In this document: in pieces, positions 62,527-64,000 of the stretch | Numbering within the stretch: position 1 is the stretch's first letter | Layout: each line of letters starts with the position of its first letter | NCBI GenBank assembly: GCA_021740785.1 | Contig: JAIOZI010000006.1 | Span: forward strand, 1-64,000 | Reading direction: 5' to 3' | Length of the DNA: 64,000 nucleotides | DNA from: Melioribacteraceae bacterium | Lineage (GTDB): Bacteria > Bacteroidota > Ignavibacteria > Ignavibacteriales > Melioribacteraceae | Notes under the pieces: generated by a model | Database searches by the model: none | The model's input: the letters and a program-made list of their open reading frames with translations, nothing else | What the model was told of the DNA's origin: nothing | Program-made: the position numbers and the translations under genes

Positions 62527-62576
62527 AGTGCTCTTTTGTTCACTACAAATATAGTGTACGGATGTGCACTTGTCAA
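62527..62576 (-). promoter_or_regulatory. lexA promoter with two candidate LexA operators
   Basis: On the minus strand TTGACA (62571-62576) and TATATT (62548-62553, extended to TATATTTG) are separated by exactly 17 bases. That spacer plus one base is the palindrome AGTGCACATCCGTACACT (62553-62570). A second palindrome of the same length, AGTGAACAAAAGAGCACT (62527-62544), covers the expected transcription start. Both fit AGTG-N10-CACT, with extra agreement at A6-C7-A8 and G12. Confidence 0.75.
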
Positions 62577-62586
62577 GAACTAATTT

Positions 62587-62618
62587 AAAAAAAATAAAAA
62601 AGCCGCTCGAAAGCGGCT
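62587..62618 (-). terminator. Terminator of ilvE
   Basis: AGCCGCT (62612-62618 read on the minus strand) pairs with AGCGGCT (62601-62607) around a CGAA-type tetraloop region. A long A run at 62587-62600 gives the U tract on the minus transcript. It separates ilvE from lexA. Confidence 0.9.
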
Positions 62619-62648
62619 CTCTTAAAATAGATGTAAAAGCAGGAATGA

Positions 62649-63716
62649 TTAATTCAGGTATGTCATCCAACCATATCTGTCTTCAATTCTTCCGTATTGT
62701 ATTCCGGTAATTTCTTTGTAAAGTTTTGTTCCTAATTCACCGGCTTCTTCATCACCAAAAGTAAATAACTTATCTTTGTATTTCAGTTTTCCGACCGAGG
62801 AGATAACCGCAGCGGTACCAGTGCCGAATATTTCAATCAAATTACCGTTTTCGTATCCATCGACAACTTCATCTATCGATATCATTCTTTCGGTAACATT
62901 GTAATTCCAGTCCTTCAATATTTGCAGTACAGACATTCTGGTAATACCCGGTAAGATAGATCCGGTAAGCATAGGAGTAGTAACCTCATCTTTAAATTGA
63001 ACGAAAATATTCATCGTTCCGACTTCCTCAATATATTTTTGCTCAATTGCATCGAGCCATAAAACCTGGGAGAAGCCTTCTCTCTTTGCTTCCCTTTGTG
63101 CAAGCAGACTGGCAGCATAATTTCCCGCTGTTTTACAATCTCCTATACCTTTTCTTACTGCGCGTACATATTTGTCTGTTGCCAATATCGGAACAGGCTT
63201 AAAACCTTCGGGATAATAAGGTCCAACCGGGCTGAGCATTATAATAAATTTGTAACTATCGGATGGTCTCACTCCGAGAAACGGATCGGTGGCAAACATT
63301 AGCGGGCGAATATACAAAGCATGCCCAGGTTTCGTGGGTATCCAATCCTTCTCAATTTTTACTAATTCTTTCAGACCGTTTAGTACGAGTTCATTATCCA
63401 CTTCGGGCATAACAAGTCTGCGCGCTGAGTTATTCATTCTTTCGAAATTTCTTTCAGGACGGAACATTGCAATTCTTCCGTCAACCTGCTTATAAGCTTT
63501 TAATCCTTCAAATATTGTTTGTCCGTAATGAAGTACCATTGCAGCCGGACTAAGTTCGAGCTTTGAAAGTTTCTTGATCGTCGGATTATGCCAGCCTAAG
63601 GCTTCATCATAATCCATTACAAAGATATGGTTCGTCATCATTCGACCAAATATTAGATTTTCAGGTAATTCAACTTTTGTCGACTGATCTTCAGTTTCAT
63701 AATTAATATTAACCAT
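62649..63716 (-). CDS. ilvE: Branched-chain amino acid aminotransferase
   Basis: This PLP enzyme interconverts branched-chain 2-oxo acids with Leu, Ile and Val. Its 355 residues fit the class IV aminotransferase fold: GRMMTNHIFVMDYDEALGWHNPTI, HYGQTIFEGLKAYKQVDGRI, the PLP-lysine region KTAGNYAASLLAQREAKREG, EEVGTMNIFVQF and EIFGTGTAAVISSVG. It resembles the longer, ~350-residue branch. A leader region with the hallmarks of an attenuator lies upstream. Confidence 0.97.
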   Translation of the reverse strand: MVNINYETEDQSTKVELPENLIFGRMMTNHIFVMDYDEALGWHNPTIKKLSKLELSPAAMVLHYGQTIFEGLKAYKQVDGRIAMFRPERNFERMNNSARRLVMPEVDNELVLNGLKELVKIEKDWIPTKPGHALYIRPLMFATDPFLGVRPSDSYKFIIMLSPVGPYYPEGFKPVPILATDKYVRAVRKGIGDCKTAGNYAASLLAQREAKREGFSQVLWLDAIEQKYIEEVGTMNIFVQFKDEVTTPMLTGSILPGITRMSVLQILKDWNYNVTERMISIDEVVDGYENGNLIEIFGTGTAAVISSVGKLKYKDKLFTFGDEEAGELGTKLYKEITGIQYGRIEDRYGWMTYLN

Positions 63717-63785
63717 TTTATCACCTTTCTTATTTCAGAATACTGAACAATATGATTGTTACCCTCACAAATTATTGTATAAATA

Positions 63786-63818
63786 AAAAATGCCCGGTGG
63801 AGGGCTTACCGGGCATTT
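63786..63818 (-). terminator. Terminator hairpin in the ilvE leader
   Basis: AAATGCCCGGT (minus strand, 63808-63818) pairs with ACCGGGCATTT (63788-63798) and is followed by a U run. It lies about 70 bases upstream of the ilvE start and 10 bases after a short Ile-rich frame, so it is a good candidate for the terminator arm of an attenuator. Confidence 0.8.
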
Positions 63819-63824
63819 GAGAAT

Positions 63825-63884
63825 AATTTACCATCTAATAATAATTAGACGGCAAATCACTGTAAAGTTAATATTGATAATCAT
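63825..63884 (-). promoter_or_regulatory. Candidate branched-chain attenuator: Ile-rich leader peptide and hairpin
   Basis: A minus-strand frame from ATG 63882-63884 to TAA 63828-63830 encodes the 18 residues MIININ FTVICRLIIIRW, with seven Ile, one Val and one Leu, and three Ile codons in a row near the end. The Ile run lies in a 15-bp hairpin (arms 63825-63839 and 63844-63858, three G-U pairs, UAUU loop), and the terminator hairpin follows six bases later. No good ribosome-binding site is visible and the antiterminator pairing is not obvious. Confidence 0.6.
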
Positions 63885-64000
63885 ATACTTTTTTTTTGAA
63901 AAACTTCAGGTTCAGTTTGATCACTCGAAAGATAATAAATTCATTTCAATTTTCAATAAAAAAATCGCATTGTTATAGCAAAATTTTTTTGTTAAATTTT

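Follow-up and report, generated by a model that had tools for sequence, protein, structure and literature searches.

The 5' leader of ilvE in this genome of a Melioribacteraceae bacterium (order Ignavibacteriales; hereafter G000) is tentatively explained as an attenuator that would read isoleucine supply through translation of a short leader ORF, completion of which would lead to readthrough of a terminator and thus to ilvE expression when isoleucine is plentiful (probability roughly 0.43). By default, a hairpin (P1) and the terminator stem (P2) would fold and transcription would halt ahead of ilvE. With a ribosome held at the isoleucine codons, P2 would stay free to form, and a ribosome reaching the stop codon close to the P2 stem would hinder P2 and allow RNA polymerase to read through. 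The direction would be reversed compared to trp, ilv, and leu attenuation, with ilvE being off when isoleucine is scarce, and IlvE would consume branched-chain amino acids in a genome that is unable to make them by the usual route.

All leader elements of ilvE are present in the window, i.e. the whole stretch of 64,000 nucleotides that was analysed, and lie on its minus strand:

62649..63716, minus strand: ilvE, branched-chain amino acid aminotransferase of the ilvE_II type (profile NF009897)
63780..63787, minus strand: U-rich tract UUUAUUUA following P2 (sequence)
63788..63818, minus strand: intrinsic terminator stem P2, 11 bp, AAATGCCCGGT / ACCGGGCATTT with the loop AAGCCCTCC (sequence and fold)
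63822..63861, minus strand: hairpin P1, 18 bp, loop UAUU (fold about -20 kcal/mol)
63828..63884, minus strand: predicted leader ORF MIININFTVICRLIIIRW followed by a stop codon, 18 codons, 7 Ile (sequence, shuffles, and relatives)
63928..63956, minus strand: promoter-like motif TTG-N19-TATCTTT, a consensus match only, 72 nt upstream of the leader ATG

The first-pass annotation of this DNA had described an 18-codon frame with seven Ile codons, three of them in a row, and a terminator before ilvE. Both were found again, the frame at 63884-63828 and the terminator as an 11-bp stem at 63818-63788 with its U-rich tract; a hairpin around the Ile codons also exists, its length being 18 bp (63861-63822) instead of the 15 bp given there. 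Seven of the 17 residues after Met are Ile, and P1 takes in Ile codons 14-16 together with the stop codon. The 55 nt before the terminator, which include P1, fold with a z of -7.5, and the leader consisting of ORF, P1, and P2 folds with -36.9 kcal/mol (z = -7.9). As in an attenuator, the intrinsic terminator sits between the leader ORF and ilvE, at a distance of 71 nt from the ilvE start codon (63716). The ilvE gene product matches NF009897 with 482 bits (cut-off 307), and its nearest named relatives belong to the Melioribacteraceae, Ignavibacteriales. Searched at up to three mismatches, the P2 pattern occurs once in G000. The far-side neighbour of the leader is divergent, its ORF starting on the plus strand at a position equivalent to 64025 of the window; P2 therefore does not terminate a gene lying upstream on the minus strand, and this candidate role was ruled out. 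A promoter-like match inside the leader (63866-63838) was disregarded, as the scan yields fewer such sites than shuffles. In the vicinity, a near-consensus promoter-like match (TTGACA-17-TATATT) precedes lexA (62548-62576 of the window, minus strand), and a terminator-like hairpin follows ilvE (62595-62624, minus strand).

An ORF with at least seven Ile codons ending at the terminator arose in 81 of 20000 dinucleotide shuffles of the sequence upstream of P2, and in 35 of 20000 when only ATG starts were counted. Taken alone, this figure is modest because the site was picked from 64 kb, and the leader site by itself is suggestive only because three Ile codons fall within the AT-rich P1 apex. It is the relatives that make the case that the Ile frame at ilvE is probably more than chance. 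In a family sample of 79 genomes, 73 of which carry ilvE, 31 ilvE upstream regions contain a terminator, and most of these leaders have a frame rich in Ile, Leu, or Val that ends at or enters the terminator. The frames have diverged in sequence, examples being MKKILEINIIILGLIVIII, MRKDIINILFVNILLIEIIILM, MTFNIINILLIIV, and MVLNLVNIIKVYLSIIIIENHF. The maximum Ile number summed over species is 118, compared to 35.6+-8.9 in shuffles, the best of 500 shuffles reaching 73, and Ile is the sole enriched residue in these frames (2 of 500 shuffles as high). In the loci L018 and L134, five Ile codons are retained through synonymous change, and third codon positions vary most in ten leader pairs (p 0.03; the pairs are not all independent). 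The motif TTG-N18-21-TATnTT is found upstream of 18 of the 31 leaders, whereas shuffles yield 1.65+-1.2 and none of 200 reaches this number, and between terminator and ilvE none was found in the 31 leaders scanned. This distribution speaks against a start of ilvE transcription downstream of the terminator, an objection which the first-pass annotation had raised against its own proposal of a leader-peptide attenuator on a lone ilvE. Because of the Ile-, Leu-, and Val-rich frames at the terminator and the promoter-like motifs in relatives, that proposal, leader-peptide control of ilvE, is well supported for the family.

In G000, which is reported to be 99.88% complete, ilvE is present, and ilvD, ilvC, and leuA-type HMGL genes are absent. 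Weak KARI_N matches of 24-28 bits were not counted as ilvC; the equivalog for this gene scores 22.6 bits versus 226. A terminator precedes ilvE in 26 of the 33 genomes without ilvD and in 5 of the 37 with ilvD (Fisher p 4e-8, uncorrected, many of the genomes being incomplete). This association is not significant on the IlvE tree, on which 3.2 of 8 independent pairs point the same way and 0.7 the opposite way. A branched-chain 2-oxoacid dehydrogenase was considered as proof of catabolism and rejected, since the E1 component found is pyruvate-dehydrogenase-like and below the cut-off. Relatives within the order are described in the literature as peptide degraders in which several amino-acid pathways are missing (PMC5460018). 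One genome without ilvD (G077, locus L115) has a Leu-rich frame, MNKLQLDNLLFLIILLLTS, upstream of its ilvE, accompanied only by a weak hairpin and a U-run.

The proposed direction of control draws on the position of the leader stop codon. In G000, the stop codon is separated from the P2 stem by 9 nt, compared to more than 20 nt in classical spacing. Among 29 ilvE leaders, the median stop-to-stem distance is +5. In 28 of them the stop is closer than -27, i.e. closer than in the E. coli set, the seven control leaders of which range from -27 to -67; the tandem ilvD leaders of the relative G002 have distances of -29 and -27. In the 24 leaders beyond -13, either the stem would be touched or covered by a ribosome standing at the stop codon or the frame itself crosses the stem, so that translation would end beside or past the terminator as expected for a readthrough-type leader. 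In G000 itself, a ribosome at the stop, its reach taken from E. coli, would only abut the base of P2 and leave the core uncovered. In E. coli, a terminator placed 5 bp after the stop codon works at below 10%, termination is maximal once the stop is beyond about 27-30 nt, and stop codon and terminator are more than 20 bp apart in every known amino-acid attenuator (PMC4824070). For rph-pyrE, E. coli B has a stop-to-stem distance of -9 and the frameshifted K-12 one of -38; the K-12 rph frameshift lowers pyrE (PMC2784333). Since a ribosome that finishes close to the terminator all but prevents termination in E. coli (PMC4824070; rph-pyrE), readthrough on completion of the leader is preferred here, and the resemblance of the stop position to pyrBI and rph-pyrE suggests that ample isoleucine may turn ilvE on.

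Leaders rich in Ile, Leu, and Val have an established mode of action, which also occurs before ilvD in the same family. Applied to ilvE, scarcity of charged tRNA-Ile would stall the ribosome, an alternative structure would displace the terminator, and ilvE would be turned on; IlvE would in that case serve to form branched-chain amino acids, its 2-oxoacids coming from another source, e.g. reductive carboxylation. For the ilvE leader this is doubtful. When a modelled ribosome was placed at control codons or at the stop, with the seven E. coli leaders as controls, the antiterminator probability of the controls was near 1 at the control codons and, with the exception of hisL, dropped close to 0 when the ribosome was at the stop. 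The tandem ilvD leaders of G002 behaved likewise, with 1.0 at Ile and 0.06-0.09 at the stop. In the ilvE leader of G000, the antiterminator probability was 0.01-0.59 at the Ile codons and the terminator probability 0.95 at every Ile stall, i.e. a stall at control codons is not predicted to form an antiterminator; as the last Ile codons are only 21-27 nt from the stem, there is no room for a 2:3 hairpin. A family-wide antiterminator signal was absent in 30 leaders (0.72 compared to 0.71+-0.05 in shuffles), and in two tests, this one included, antiterminator pairing in the ilvE leaders did not exceed that of shuffles. At Ile stalls, possible antiterminators are predicted for L013 (1.0) and for L123, L127, and L129 (0.95), and the L127 duplex reaches a p of 0.005, but this best candidate, CTGGGT:ACCCGG, is disrupted in the sister L129. 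The remark of the first-pass annotation that a 2:3 antiterminator is not clear by eye is thereby borne out by both duplex and ribosome-stall tests, and its enterobacterial model of branched-chain attenuation was not supported, given the lack of an antiterminator signal and the short stop-to-terminator distance; the same tests recover the switch in E. coli and in the ilvD leaders of G002.

An explanation of comparable, i.e. low, probability dispenses with the ORF altogether: P1 and P2 would form an RNA of their own, be it a short leader or the product of a small RNA gene with C-rich loops. Its terminator would lie before ilvE by coincidence, and the Ile frame in G000 would be incidental. The P2 pattern is conserved in 26 of the 164 genomes of the order, in 24 of them as a single copy, and is nearly always located before ilvE. 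The P2 stem directly upstream of ilvE in G000 carries the same CCCTCC loop as this order-wide element. P1 is present at every locus with the CCCTCC loop (mean z -4.1, 8 loci), whereas the other 23 ilvE leaders on average have none (mean z 0.05), and the ilvE leaders appear to fall into two classes, with or without this loop. In family f3, P1 consists of GATTCATTAAG and CTTAATGAATC flanking the loop and covaries, 5 of 11 P1 pairs being changed on both sides, and a consistent Ile frame was not seen at the f3 element. Covariation was taken from f3, and that of P1 in Melioribacteraceae was left uncounted because the P1 sequences are not confidently alignable. Extra P1-P2 copies beside unrelated genes, away from ilvE, were observed in one genus (g67; L233, L245, L246, and L248), with a TANNTTTG-like promoter-like box just before P1. 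The C-rich loops of the P1-P2 copies suggest a small RNA family. An ORF-independent RNA deserves consideration because P2 loop and P1 hairpin precede ilvE elsewhere without an Ile frame. For G000, however, it is opposed by several observations. P1 of this genome, a different 18-bp hairpin with the loop UAUU, does not match the f3-type P1 sequence with its ACCCC loop, and the loci with synonymously retained Ile codons, L018 and L134, belong to the same class and have frames that run through P2. With the promoter-like motif located 95 nt upstream of P1, the transcript would include the leader ORF, and the chance of such an Ile frame is about 0.004.

That the element is a plain terminator or a product of AT-rich chance, with ilvE not being regulated by its leader, is very improbable: Ile codons are frequent where DNA is AT-rich and the palindromic apex of P1 creates ATT repeats, but there is no upstream minus-strand gene to terminate, the arrangement recurs in many genera, and the promoter-like motifs lie upstream of the frame only.

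Control by isoleucine supply through completion of the leader is thus preferred, with confidence for G000 being tempered because an ORF-independent RNA is a serious rival. P1 could additionally pause RNA polymerase. An IlvE that only consumes its substrates would profit from being off in scarcity, which is an argument and not evidence. Somewhat more speculative is the wider proposal of an amino-acid-inducible attenuator that ties ilvE transcription to completion of the leader, is off at isoleucine shortage in lineages without branched-chain synthesis, and may have evolved beside classical ilvD leaders.

Among known systems, the E. coli leaders ilvL, ivbL, leuL, thrL, hisL, trpL, and pheL likewise have a short residue-rich ORF, hairpins, and a terminator before an amino-acid gene. 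They differ in having at least 24 nt from stop to stem and a strong antiterminator at the control codons, compared to 9 nt and none in the ilvE leader. Closer in geometry are E. coli pyrBI, with the leader pyrL, and rph-pyrE, whose ORF likewise stops at the terminator or continues through it, without need of an antiterminator; in pyrL, the stop is located at +43 and the antiterminator duplex has a p of 0.49. Both systems sense UTP through the speed of RNA polymerase, whereas the variable in the ilvE leader would be Ile-tRNA supply, acting via the speed of the ribosome.

The f3 P1-P2 element shares with G000 the position before ilvE, the P2 stem, and the CCCTCC loop, and differs in its P1 sequence, the ACCCC loop, the lack of a consistent Ile ORF, and the extra copies in one genus. 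No Rfam leader family reached its gathering threshold at the ilvE and ilvD leaders; weak full-length matches to Phe_leader RF01859 (29.9 bits) and His_leader RF00514 (24 bits) are far under the gathering scores of 55 and 49, respectively. A full-text search revealed no literature joining Ignavibacteria with leader-peptide attenuation; subscription papers, e.g. a 2010 comparative survey cited in PMC4833913, were outside its scope.

The ilvD leaders of ilvD-bearing Melioribacteraceae encode branched-chain-rich peptides as well. In G002 they are classical tandem attenuators (L202 1642-1930), the Ile-rich leaders MKTIKNILVLIISIIIIQ and MKNFSLINIILLIIVIIIPGYWE each having their own terminator and antiterminator. 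In the others (L183-L196 and L198-L201), leader peptides of about 50-70 residues, most ending in strings like LLGIIILSLLGILITVIG, are found upstream of ilvD together with the segments CTAGGGATT, GGTCAATCCC, and GGGATTGACC, which have possible alternative pairings, and a U-run terminator is absent. Near the ilvD region of G031, a SAM riboswitch was detected with 77.5 bits (L185 957-1075, minus strand). Leader-peptide attenuation is taught as a control of biosynthesis that is switched on by starvation. If the geometry acts as in E. coli, the same parts would have been rearranged in pathway-losing lineages so that supply turns a transaminase on. The leader-peptide device would then be read in reverse, with the enzyme off when isoleucine is short, and the classical ilvD leaders of the same family provide the natural comparison for the ilvE leaders.
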